Below, one piece after another: positions 246-22,877 of a stretch of DNA of 64,000 bases. A program made the translations under genes and the position numbers. Below the pieces are notes generated by a model. That model was not told the DNA's origin and did not search any database. It worked only from the letters and a program-made list of their open reading frames with translations. This stretch comes from Nitrospira sp. (GTDB taxonomy: Bacteria; Nitrospirota; Nitrospiria; Nitrospirales; Nitrospiraceae): contig JARFXR010000001.1 of the NCBI GenBank assembly GCA_029194535.1, positions 62,001 through 126,000 on the forward strand. The letters are read 5' to 3'. The first letter of the stretch is position 1. Each line of letters starts with the position of its first letter.

Positions 246-248
246 AGA

Positions 249-324
249 AAGTGCTGAGTGCTGAGTTTCGAGCGCTGAGCACGAGCCGAGAGGCTCAGGA
301 CTGAGCACTCAGGACTCAGCACTT
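249..324. repeat. Heptad-unit inverted repeat, likely bidirectional terminator
   Basis: The 10-bp arms AAGTGCTGAG (249-258) and CTCAGCACTT (315-324) are perfect complements, and the whole interval can be written as consecutive degenerate 7-bp units of the AGTGCTG / CTCAGCA type. It fills the gap between two convergent stop codons and is followed by a T-run, so it could terminate both genes. Similar unit sequences recur near 18.9, 19.0 and 52.2 kb. Confidence 0.6.
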
Positions 325-326
325 TT

Positions 327-18880: not shown

Positions 18881-18900
18881 AACAGTAAGGACCAGGGTGT

Positions 18901-18937
18901 GAGGACTGGGGGCTAAGAGCATTCGACCTCAGTCCTC
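18901..18937. repeat. Short heptad-type inverted repeat after the oxidase gene
   Basis: GAGGACTG (18901-18908) and CAGTCCTC (18930-18937) are perfect complements, embedded in degenerate 7-bp units such as GTCCTCA, GCACTGA and TCACTCA that continue to about 18952. It is the same family as the element at 249-324. Confidence 0.5.
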
Positions 18938-18956
18938 AGCACTGATCACTCAACAA

Positions 18957-18996
18957 GGGGGGGAGCTGCGCCGACGGTGTAGCTCCCCTGTTCTTT
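18957..18996 (+). terminator. Intrinsic terminator of the multicopper oxidase gene
   Basis: GGGGAGCT (18960-18967) pairs with AGCTCCCC (18981-18988) across 13 bases and is followed by TGTTCTTT. The flanking AACA and TGTT can extend the stem. It lies 77 bp after the oxidase stop, so the downstream copper-accessory gene probably has its own promoter or receives only read-through. Confidence 0.7.
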
Positions 18997-19000
18997 AAGA

Positions 19001-19072
19001 AGTCCTGAGTGCTGGGTGCTGAGCCTCAAGTTGGACAATGCAAGTTTTCGAACTTCACTACTCAGCGCTGGT
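19001..19072. repeat. Heptad-unit repeat upstream of the copper accessory gene
   Basis: The interval reads as degenerate heptads (GTCCTGA GTGCTGG GTGCTGA GCCTCAA and, inverted, CTACTCA GCGCTGG). It belongs to the AGTGCTGAG family seen at 249, 18901 and 52183. It lies just upstream of the ribosome-binding site of the next gene. Confidence 0.45.
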
Positions 19073-20069: not shown

Positions 20070-21014
20070 ATGGGGGTAACGGGACAAAGGAGTGAATGGA
20101 GACTGGCGGTCGCGCTCTTGATTTGCCTCTGCGCGCCTGCGGCACCAGCCGAGGCCGATCACGAATCGTCGAAGCAACCGCCGCTCTGGACGCCGCTTGA
20201 CGGACCAGAGCGGCTCGCCGCGATGGACACGCCGGGAGGCATGGTCGAGGTGCCGGCCGGCTGGTTCCTCATGGGTAGCGATCCGAAGCTCGACCGAGCG
20301 GCAGGACCGCAGGAACTGCCTCAGCGCTCGGTGTTTCTCGACCGATTCGAGATCGATCGTTACGAGATATCGAACGTGGACTACCTGCGGTTCGTCCTGG
20401 CCATGGGAGCGGATTGGCCGCAGTTCTGGCGCGAGAGTCCCTTCCCGGAAAAGGCCGCTCTTCACCCCGTTATCAATGTGAGTTGGAATGACGCCGATGC
20501 CTACTGCCGGTGGGCGGGCAAGCGGCTGCCCACGGAAGCAGAGTGGGAAAAAGCGGCGAGGGGCGAAGACGGGCGAGTATTCCCGTGGGGGAATGAGCCT
20601 GCCGGCTGGCTCAAGAGCAACATCGCGCATCCCGGTTCCAAACGTGGATTCAAGTACCCTCCGCTCGCGAACGTAAATCGCTATGACCGAGGCGTGAGCC
20701 CTTATGGCGTGCATCAGATGGCGGGAAACGTCAGCGAGTGGGTGGCTGATTGGTTCGATCCGGAGTACTACCAGCGTGACGAGAACAAGAATCCGCCCGG
20801 GCCGCGGCATGGAGCCGACAAGGTGTTTCGCGGCGGGTCATGGAACGAGGATCCTGAAGTCGCCCGTTCGGCCGGACGGAATGCCGGCGCGCCCGATCGC
20901 CGGAGTTATCTCACCGGATTCCGCTGCGCGCGATCAGAGACGAGGGTGAACGGTCATTGGTCAATGGTGAAAGGCGGAGAATCGAATCAACACATTGATT
21001 CCACCCACCATTGA
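20070..21014 (+). CDS. Exported SUMF1/formylglycine-generating-enzyme-fold protein
   Basis: A 314-residue protein with a signal peptide (ALLICLCAPAAPAEA) and a full SUMF1 fold: VPAGWFLMGSD, HPVINVSWNDADAYCRWAGKRLPTEAEWEKAARGEDG, FPWGNE, GVHQMAGNVSEWVADW, FRGGSW and GFRCARS. True formylglycine-generating enzymes carry a catalytic cysteine shortly after the GGS motif; here that stretch reads GGSWNEDPEVA with no Cys, so sulfatase activation is unlikely. The last 20 or so residues (after GFRCARSE) are encoded by an inverted-repeat element. A second SUMF1 gene follows; both may be structural partners of the copper oxidase. Confidence 0.85.
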   Translation: MGVTGQRSEWRLAVALLICLCAPAAPAEADHESSKQPPLWTPLDGPERLAAMDTPGGMVEVPAGWFLMGSDPKLDRAAGPQELPQRSVFLDRFEIDRYEISNVDYLRFVLAMGADWPQFWRESPFPEKAALHPVINVSWNDADAYCRWAGKRLPTEAEWEKAARGEDGRVFPWGNEPAGWLKSNIAHPGSKRGFKYPPLANVNRYDRGVSPYGVHQMAGNVSEWVADWFDPEYYQRDENKNPPGPRHGADKVFRGGSWNEDPEVARSAGRNAGAPDRRSYLTGFRCARSETRVNGHWSMVKGGESNQHIDSTHH

Positions 21015-21022
21015 CCATTCAC
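20953..21022. repeat. Heptad inverted repeat forming the 3' end of the first SUMF1 gene
   Basis: Arms GTCATTGGTCAATGGTG (20953-20969) and CACCATTGACCATTCAC (21006-21022) match at 15 of 17 positions. The sequence runs as 7-bp units (GGTCATT GGTCAAT GGTGAAA ... CCATTGA CCATTCA), and an inner AATCA/TGATT pair adds a second stem. The left arm and loop are translated as the gene's tail and the stop codon falls in the right arm. Confidence 0.7.
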
Positions 21023-21055
21023 TATAGGACATCGCAACAACAAGGAGGCCGTATC

Positions 21056-22045
21056 GTGAAACGAGATATCCTAGAGAGCCGGCGGACATTGGACTGGACG
21101 ATCACTGCGTGCCTGATTGTTGCCGCCCTGATTGGTCTGACGCGCATTGCCTGGGGATTGGACACGCAAGACATCACGATCGAGTGGACCGAGCAGGGCA
21201 AACAGATCGCCTCAGACCGGGTGGCGAACTGGAAAACGAAGGACGAGATGATGCTGGTCCCGGCCGGAGAGTTTCTGATGGGCAGCGACAAGAAGTTCGA
21301 CCGGGTCGCATACCGGTCGGAGCTTCCGCAGCGGCGGGTGTACCTGGATTCGTTCGAAATCGGCAAGTACGAAGTGACGGCGCTGGAGTATCTCGCGTTC
21401 GTCCTCGCCACCGGCCGCCCGCCGCAACTGGATTGGCGCTATGACGGCGGGAATTTCCAGGAGGCGATGGCGCATCACCCCATCATGCACGTCACCTGGT
21501 ACGATGCGGATGCCTACTGCCGCTGGGCCGGGAAGCGCCTGCCCACTGAAGCCGAATGGGAAAAGGCCGCCCGAGGCGAAGACGGCCGGATCAATCCCTG
21601 GGGTAATCAACCGGCCGGGTTGAGCCGCGTGAACTTCGGCCGTACAGGCCTGTCCGGGCCTGTGAGGGATCGTCCGGAGAGGCTGCTGCTCTATCCGCCG
21701 ATTATTTCGGTCGACAAGTACGAGAACGGCGTGAGCCCGTACGGCGCGTATCAGATGTTGGGGAACGTCTCGGAATGGGTGGCGGATTGGTACGACAAGG
21801 ATTACTACGCCACCGCGCCCGACCGGAATCCCACAGGTCCGATGACCGGGACCCAGAAGGCGTTCCGCGGCGGGGGCTGGATGGACAGCACCACGACGAT
21901 GCGGGCGGCCATGCGCAACGGGACCGATCCGAACACCAAGATCAACTGGATGGGTTTCCGCTGTGCGAAATCGGTGGAAACGTCAAACGTCAATCGACAA
22001 TCGTCCATCGAATCGGACGACCGGATGGCGCGTCTCCGCGAATGA
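21056..22045 (+). CDS. Second SUMF1-fold protein, membrane-anchored or exported
   Basis: A 329-residue paralogue of the preceding protein. The start is GTG 21056, seven bases after AAGGAGG; a TTG at 21011 lies inside the repeat and lacks a site. A basic N-terminus and hydrophobic helix (TITACLIVAALIGLTRIAWG) target it to the membrane or periplasm. SUMF1 hallmarks are complete (VPAGEFLMGSD, YCRWAGKRLPTEAEWEKAARGEDG, GNVSEWVADW, FRGGGW, GFRCAKS), again without a catalytic Cys after the GGG motif. The C-terminal tail after GFRCAKS comes from a different heptad repeat than in the first copy. Likely co-transcribed with its neighbour. Confidence 0.85.
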   Translation: MKRDILESRRTLDWTITACLIVAALIGLTRIAWGLDTQDITIEWTEQGKQIASDRVANWKTKDEMMLVPAGEFLMGSDKKFDRVAYRSELPQRRVYLDSFEIGKYEVTALEYLAFVLATGRPPQLDWRYDGGNFQEAMAHHPIMHVTWYDADAYCRWAGKRLPTEAEWEKAARGEDGRINPWGNQPAGLSRVNFGRTGLSGPVRDRPERLLLYPPIISVDKYENGVSPYGAYQMLGNVSEWVADWYDKDYYATAPDRNPTGPMTGTQKAFRGGGWMDSTTTMRAAMRNGTDPNTKINWMGFRCAKSVETSNVNRQSSIESDDRMARLRE

Positions 22046-22061
22046 CGACTGACGTATGACG
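21981..22061. repeat. Heptad inverted repeat forming the 3' end of the second SUMF1 gene
   Basis: The 21-base arms at 21981-22001 (starting CGTCAAACGTC) and 22041-22061 (ending CTGACGTATGACG) are complementary at 17 of 21 positions. The units (AACGTCA, ATCGACA, ATGACGA, CTGACGT) are again seven bases long but differ in sequence from the CCATTGA and CTCAGCA types. The gene's stop codon lies in the right arm. Confidence 0.65.
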
Positions 22062-22181
22062 GGAACTCCATCGTGAATTACTTATTCACCACGCTGATGT
22101 CTCGGGCCGGCGTGCGCATGTCAGCGCATCGCTCGAAGGAAGGGCCGTGCTCCTCGACGACAACCGAAGAGGAGAGACATC

Positions 22182-22877
22182 ATGCAGATTCATCGGAGGA
22201 AGAGCAGCCGGACCATTGGAGCGTGGCTTGTCGGAATTGCAATCGCCGCGGGAGTCGTTGTCTGTGGTGCCTCGCAGGCTTCTGCTGAGGAAGAGACGAC
22301 GAGGACAGGCAACAGGGTTTTTTTCCGCGGGGGATTCGCAGCGCTGAACAGCAGTCGGGGAGGGGAGCTGTTTACAAACGTCCATGGACTCGCCGGCGGC
22401 CCATCCAATGACGACAGCACCGGCTATTATATCGGCGCTGGAACCGACTTGATGCTGACGCGAGACGCCTGGGGCTTGGCGGACAAAGTCGGCATCCTTG
22501 GCGAAATCGGCATGGAGTACAATCGCTTTAGCTCACAAACCGTCGCGAACTCCGATACGGCGTTGACCGGCGCTCCTTTTTACAAAACCCAGGTCACCAT
22601 GCTGACGATCGACGTGGCGCCGAAGATAAAATTCCGACAGGGGACCGACTTCCAGCCTTGGCTCATCCCGGTCGGCCTGGACTTTCACGTGATCAGCCCA
22701 CCTTCAAATCAAACGAACTATCTCGACATCGGGGCGCAGTTCGGAGTCGGCGGTGAAGTCCGCGTGTGGAAAGAATTATGGCTCGGGGTGGACGGTCGAT
22801 ACCATTTGGCATCAGGCGCGACAAATACCGTCAACAACTATGGAACCGTGGGCGCCTACGTAGGCATCGGCTTTTAA
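22182..22877 (+). CDS. Outer-membrane beta-barrel protein
   Basis: A 231-residue protein with a signal peptide ending ASQASA-EEE and alternating amphipathic strands (VFFRGGFAAL, YYIGAGTDLML, WLGVDGRYHLA), ending in Phe after YVGIGF, the usual C-terminal signature for barrel insertion. Its size suits an 8-10 strand OmpW/OmpA-like barrel. The ligand is unknown. It follows the oxidase-SUMF1 cluster and could anchor or feed it, but nothing in the sequence proves this. Confidence 0.75.
   Translation: MQIHRRKSSRTIGAWLVGIAIAAGVVVCGASQASAEEETTRTGNRVFFRGGFAALNSSRGGELFTNVHGLAGGPSNDDSTGYYIGAGTDLMLTRDAWGLADKVGILGEIGMEYNRFSSQTVANSDTALTGAPFYKTQVTMLTIDVAPKIKFRQGTDFQPWLIPVGLDFHVISPPSNQTNYLDIGAQFGVGGEVRVWKELWLGVDGRYHLASGATNTVNNYGTVGAYVGIGF

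Follow-up and report, generated by a model that had tools for sequence, protein, structure and literature searches.

The two adjacent SUMF1-like genes in this stretch of a Nitrospira genome raise the question of whether inverted repeats built of 7-nt units have changed the C-termini of both proteins, and if so, how such repeats arise at the ends of genes. The window, that is, the whole stretch of 64,000 nt that was analyzed, belongs to a genome of 3.98 Mb (G000), the sister species of which in the same genus is represented by G001. The explanation that we consider probable as a whole is that the repeats belong to a general class of short elements at gene 3' ends, referred to here as heptad hairpins, which capture gene ends, consist of arrays generated in place, and exert an effect as RNA between cistrons.

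Two gene ends within heptad hairpins

Gene A (20070..21014, + strand, 314 aa) and gene B (21056..22045, + strand, 329 aa), the latter of which starts with GTG at 21056 preceded by AAGGAGG, both matched the FGE-sulfatase family PF03781 in a profile search, with E values of 7e-58 and 8e-59 and scores of 197 and 200 bits, respectively, against a cut-off of 23. The match ends at GFRCA in each protein (residue 288 in gene A and 305 in gene B). In gene A, a left arm of the TCANNGG type (20953..20969, + strand, 17 nt, GTCATTGGTCAATGGTG), translated as ...GHWSMV..., is followed by a loop (20970..21005, + strand) that codes for the middle of the tail and contains a smaller GAATC/GATTC inverted repeat, and by a right arm of CCATTGA units (21006..21022, + strand, CACCATTGACCATTCAC). 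The unit pair is TCAATGG/CCATTGA, the arms are 88% complementary with a lag-7 self-match of 0.80, and a CCATTGA unit of the right arm contributes the TGA (21012-21014) at which gene A stops. Gene B ends in a different hairpin with the unit pair CGTCAAN/NTTGACG and a lag-7 match of 0.84; its left arm of CGTCAAN units (21981..22003, + strand, 23 nt, CGTCAAACGTCAATCGACAATCG) is translated as ...TSNVNRQS..., its loop (22004..22038, + strand) codes for SIESDDRMARL, and its right arm, CGAATGA CGACTGA CGTATGA (22039..22061, + strand, CGAATGACGACTGACGTATGACG), provides the stop codon TGA at 22043-22045 within the CGAATGA unit. In both genes, the left arm and loop encode the tail, which ends at a TGA of the right arm.

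The arms, lag-7 matches, and domain limits bear out the original prediction that each gene leaves its domain at GFRCA and enters its own inverted repeat of 7-nt units, which encodes the tail and the stop codon. Regarding the units themselves, the period of 7 held, whereas a reading as perfect 7-mers did not, because the heptads are degenerate, typically with approximately five fixed and two variable letters. The RNA of hairpin A folds at -30.6 kcal/mol (z -3.7, 0 of 200 dinucleotide shuffles as good) and that of hairpin B at -35.0 kcal/mol (z -2.3, 5 of 200 shuffles as good). A chance or low-complexity origin of the tails was ruled out by these z-scores together with the specificity for period 7 described below. 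No Rfam family was matched across 12-28 kb of the window, and the structure model of gene B, with a mean pLDDT of 49, was too poor for use. Tryptic peptides predicted from the heptad tails are VNGHWSMVK and GGESNQHIDSTHH for gene A and QSSIESDDR for gene B.

The window contains additional heptad hairpins, of the TGAGTNN kind. One (248..325, unit AGTGCTG), for which no strand was assigned, lies between convergent genes with a fold z of -5.0, and others (18900..19023, + strand) start 19 nt past the stop codon of a gene for a giant multicopper oxidase of 1666 aa. The second of these (AGTGCTG, 18928-19023) carries a terminator-like stem (18959-18989) within its loop. A separate observation concerns the region immediately 3' of gene B, in which a small ORF (22073-22288, + strand) encodes 71 aa of a cysteine-rich product (VNYLFTTLMSRAGVRMSA...CRNCNRRGSRCLWCLAGFC) and overlaps, in another frame, the start of an outer-membrane-protein gene (22182-22877). 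It is present in most of 15 other loci from several genera, with a conserved LM(S/P)RAG motif and a Cys-rich end.

Gene ends and protein loops among relatives

The A-B gene pair was compared among relatives, yielding 55 orthologues of gene A and 59 of gene B. According to the orthologue table, 40 of the 59 gene B orthologues, including that of the sister G001, end in the heptad-free tail (R/Q/K)DAxExAGxKVSxxxx directly followed by the stop codon. The tail SVExSxVNRQSSxE...AR, derived from the CGTCAAN hairpin, is common to G000, G033, G037, and G093 only; since these fall on non-sister branches (G000; G033; G037 with G093), the recombination of gene ends may contribute. TCAGCNN hairpins occupy the end of gene B in G060, G076, G090, and G105. 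At the end of gene A, the tail of the window was found in no other genome among the 55 orthologues, and 14 of these orthologues carry a heptad hairpin in this position, with at least five unit kinds represented: TCANNGG in G000; GGCNAGA-like in G033, G039, and G005; TCAGCNN in G016, G019, G020, G044, G060, and G074; CGTGAAN in G037, G086, and G076; and GGCNATA-like in G004. Several other gene A ends look like decayed hairpin forms, such as those encoding the peptide VKREA in G013 and G014.

The original prediction that the repeats changed both proteins is supported by this comparison because window-like tails occur only where the same hairpin is present, orthologues without it have other tails, and most gene B orthologues stop after a short, different tail free of heptads. 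In the core-domain tree, the close relatives G063, G060, and G076 show three different end states, and the sister G001 has no hairpins. No remnant of the native tail was visible past the hairpin in the DNA alignments examined (G063/G060/G076), so the tail seems to have been replaced rather than split by a clean insertion. As judged from the orthologous sequences, a conserved native tail of gene B has been replaced, and the heptads at corresponding gene ends differ between relatives. Constraint on the heptad-derived tails is weak: pN/pS rises from approximately 0.05-0.08 for the core to 0.22 for the native B tail and 0.37-0.77 for replaced or A tails, and the shared heptad B tail shows 0.51 versus 0.07 for its core. 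A recent presence/absence pair was not found in otherwise identical genomes, and the birth of an element was not observed.

Hairpins are also read within proteins. A P-type ATPase of G000 contains an AGTGCTG hairpin in frame (L031 7544-7638, corresponding to C1:157544-157638), and this loop is a hotspot, the heptads of which differ by species among the 24 family orthologues examined: AGTGCTG in G000 and G042, AGTTCTG in G053, TCAATGG-like in G025, G037, G020, and G011, GGCGAGA-like in G033, and other repeats in some of the 24, with the loop being short and empty in G016 and G038. In our reading, one unit of the translated AGTGCTG-type arrays (G000, G042, and G053) appears to deviate at what would be a TGA codon. 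The inserts of G042 and G053 are equal in length, and heptad position 4 distinguishes 9 of their 10 units, in both arms, which at this single locus points to a concerted change of units, although it could be two independent events. A GGCGAGA-type hairpin is likewise in frame in the linker of pyruvate dehydrogenase E2 (G016, L095 17124-17192), with several orthologues having similar linkers and others none.

Period, position, and spread of the hairpins

In a 464-kb sample of G000, 9 of 38 strong inverted repeats had a period of 7 and one had a period of 6, whereas a shuffled control yielded 6 inverted repeats, none of which was periodic. Under looser limits (864 kb), 23 repeats of period 7 were found versus 6 in shuffles. 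In G002, 47 were found versus 2 (400 kb). Whole-genome pattern counts detected three copies of TCAGCTA in 68 of 116 family genomes and three copies of TCAATGG in 40 of 116, with control patterns at zero; the control for CGTGANN was unclean in several genomes, including G000, G012, and G042, and this pattern was, therefore, used only for G002, G020, and G037. Tandem 7-nt units exceed chance, as they do in heptanucleotide simple sequence repeats, and arrays have an inverted partner in 13 of 15 cases in G000, 43 of 66 in G002, and 7 of 7 in G016. Several kinds of units coexist in each genome. Density reaches 47 hairpins in 400 kb in G002, 75 per Mb in G086, 40 per Mb in G016, and 28 per Mb in G000. 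As an aside, G000 and G002 are dense, and hairpins are nearly absent from G072 and from G001, a congener of the window genome (none and one match, respectively, in 200 kb sampled from each).

Positions were surveyed in 1.66 Mb sampled from five family genomes, in which 85 heptad hairpins remained after GC-rich chance matches had been removed, some high-GC period-7 inverted repeats within genes being due to chance and filtered before the position statistics. A stop codon lies inside 25 of the 85, and 35 begin 0-30 nt past one, and thus 60 (71%) are stop-associated versus 8.7% of random positions; these position counts are approximate because genes other than A and B were called by a simple home-made codon-usage caller. 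Spacers between tandem genes, with a median of 109 nt, hold 67 of 76 hairpins, often just before the next start codon.

The class may extend well beyond the family. An exact-pattern scan for TCAGCNN hairpins in 84,980 species genomes yielded at least 119 stretches, and the record titles of the matches listed cover at least 10 phyla, including Nitrospirota, Planctomycetota, Acidobacteria, Deltaproteobacteria, Myxococcales, Verrucomicrobia, Bacteroidales, Omnitrophota, Chloroflexi, Cyanobacteria, Elusimicrobia, and Armatimonadetes, among others; since most matches are metagenome bins, single taxon labels may be wrong. Among the matches listed, 66 of 118 include a stop codon or start no more than 30 nt from one, as compared with 5.7% for positions drawn at random, with ORFs picked by length only. 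Two contigs titled Klebsiella pneumoniae (L175 and L225) were binned from a metagenome (HRSG-E1-bin-52), and their label is probably wrong.

Origin of the arrays, rival explanations, and precedents

The anatomy of the hairpins, their link to stop codons, and their in-frame copies in permissive protein loops are observed directly. An element consists of two inverted arrays of one degenerate 7-nt unit (approximately five fixed and two variable letters) flanking an unrelated loop, and is located immediately at the 3' end of a gene, in a short spacer between cistrons. On overlap with a gene end, the first arm and loop would be translated into a new C-terminus, and a TGA of the second arm would become the new stop codon. 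The arrays may arise and be homogenized in place, either through the slippage of units and copying between arms or through templated synthesis, with a restricted set of unit types as the source instead of a jumping master element, and would survive where the protein tolerates them, namely, at gene ends, linkers, and loops. Between cistrons, the RNA hairpins probably act on mRNA processing or stability, a role that their position and stability make likely.

These same properties raise the possibility, which we regard as doubtful although tenable, that RNA hairpins acting as 3' stabilizers or attenuators are kept by selection, with period 7 as a by-product and gene overlap as incidental. The stable folds and the 3'-end position in tandem spacers are consistent with this proposal; however, a stem does not need a period of 7, which is specifically enriched, and copies are found within reading frames. 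Moreover, complementarity between arms is 87% at the fixed heptad positions and only 59% at the two most variable positions (71 hairpins), and since arm complementarity was part of hairpin detection, it is this contrast that counts and not the absolute level. In 30 of the 71 hairpins, the two positions with the lowest conservation are neighbors, against one third expected by chance, and the 5+2 pattern is thus typical of some kinds (TGAGTNN, TCAGCNN, and CGTCANN) rather than a rule.

Transposable palindromes (MITEs, REPs, or elements like the Rickettsia palindromic elements) that would enter gene ends and permissive sites as complete in-frame copies represent an unlikely source. The dispersed and patchy distribution among close relatives (28 per Mb in G000 and about none in G001), in-frame copies in a loop and a linker, and recurrent hits at the same sites argue for transposition, which nevertheless predicts shared loops, whereas the similarity of loops between different elements of one genome is no higher than for shuffled loops. 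MITE-like copying was rejected for this reason. The many kinds of units per genome and the absence of a native-tail remnant 3' of the hairpin also argue against transposition. A RAYT/Y1 transposase was rejected as the mover because its counts fail to track hairpin density: PF01797 had no match in G016, a genome with 40 hairpins per Mb, but six in G072, the sample of which is hairpin-free. The reverse transcriptase PF00078 was rejected as the generator because it had no match in seven genomes, hairpin-rich ones included (G000, G002, G016, G020, G037, G053, and G086). Since the loops are unrelated and density does not track the Y1 transposase or reverse transcriptase, we favor generation and homogenization in place over transposition, with roughly even confidence in the former.

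A distinctly unlikely variant is a putative dedicated enzyme or template system, common to many phyla, that builds up one and the same 5+2 heptad outward in both directions from a site, for instance, through the addition of units to each 3' end at a break ahead of joining. If this is true, inverted arrays would continually be made and rewritten at gene ends and provide raw material for new C-termini and loops. Binding sites of a putative global regulator, of the kind postulated for Geobacter metallireducens paired heptads (PMC2700814), are a very unlikely explanation; the fixed letters, the paired inverted arrays, and the several kinds per genome would suit such sites, whereas the hairpins lie at stop codons and inside coding sequences rather than at promoters, divergent spacers hold only 4 of 76, and unit identity varies among relatives at one site. 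Intrinsic transcription terminators, suggested by stem-loops after stop codons, are barely credible and were rejected, because a T-run follows only 3 of 76 hairpins and most hairpins separate tandem genes, in many cases immediately ahead of the following start codon.

In our literature search, no description was found of these heptad sequences or of Nitrospira palindromic or tandem repeats. In terms of effect, the closest precedent is the Rickettsia palindromic elements (Ogata 2000, 2002; reviewed in PMC10969869), which are likewise dispersed palindromes in frame inside or at the ends of unrelated protein genes. In-frame palindromes in host proteins, characteristic of these elements and protein-coding MITEs, were found here in the ATPase, pyruvate dehydrogenase E2, and both SUMF1 tails. 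However, the Rickettsia elements are families of conserved copies of approximately 150 bp, whereas heptad hairpins are of many kinds and have only 7-nt units in common; sharing along the whole element was not found, the loops being like shuffled ones. In terms of anatomy, the closest precedent is the paired heptads of G. metallireducens, which, as is the case for heptad hairpins, are intergenic tandem heptads paired on opposite strands, such as the pair between proB and proA (PMC2700814). These (class 3) are a single kind (consensus MTYCTGA, eight pairs), read as regulator sites with the binding of IHF/HU or another regulator only hypothesized, and, unlike for heptad hairpins, the available part of that report describes no gene-end capture, multiple kinds, or turnover.

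The TAACTGA repeats of Beggiatoaceae, cyanobacteria, and Bacteroidetes come next (PMC4679880) and are also heptads, provide stops in all frames in one orientation, and in some cases overlap ORF 3' ends, as heptad hairpins do; they differ in being direct repeats of one unit, mostly upstream of start codons and hardly ever inverted. The heptanucleotide is also a preferred unit length in cyanobacterial STRR and long simple sequence repeats (Mrazek 2007, cited in PMC4679880), which are described there as direct arrays, with inverted pairing and tail replacement absent from that description; most heptad arrays sampled here, in contrast, have an inverted partner. REP/BIME sequences with RAYT transposases are also high-copy extragenic palindromes with proposed roles in mRNA stability (PMC3733652), but lack heptad periodicity and combine short stems with a tag, either GTAG or CGTC, whereas heptad hairpins show no association with RAYT/Y1 transposase counts, and CGTC occurs within the unit of one heptad kind only. 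As far as these sources extend, none of the precedents joins inverted heptads of many kinds, the turnover of units at the same site, and the replacement of protein ends.

These little-described repeats appear, from orthologue comparisons, to keep rewriting protein ends in Nitrospira-family bacteria. The present locus provides an orthologue-controlled case of a DNA process that would repeatedly replace C-termini and fill loops at the same sites, and this in free-living bacteria, beyond Rickettsia. If the class crosses phyla, as the TCAGCNN scan suggests, many unexplained short tails, loop inserts, and intercistronic hairpins may share one cause, and because densities range so widely among close relatives, comparative genomics offers a tractable route to the generator. 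A minor observation touches on another repeat family: the ATPase loop of G013 (L299) contains a CCCCTCACCCTCCCCTCTCCCCT hairpin of a C-rich family, which is reminiscent of the class 4 repeats (CCYTC) of Geobacter (PMC2700814).
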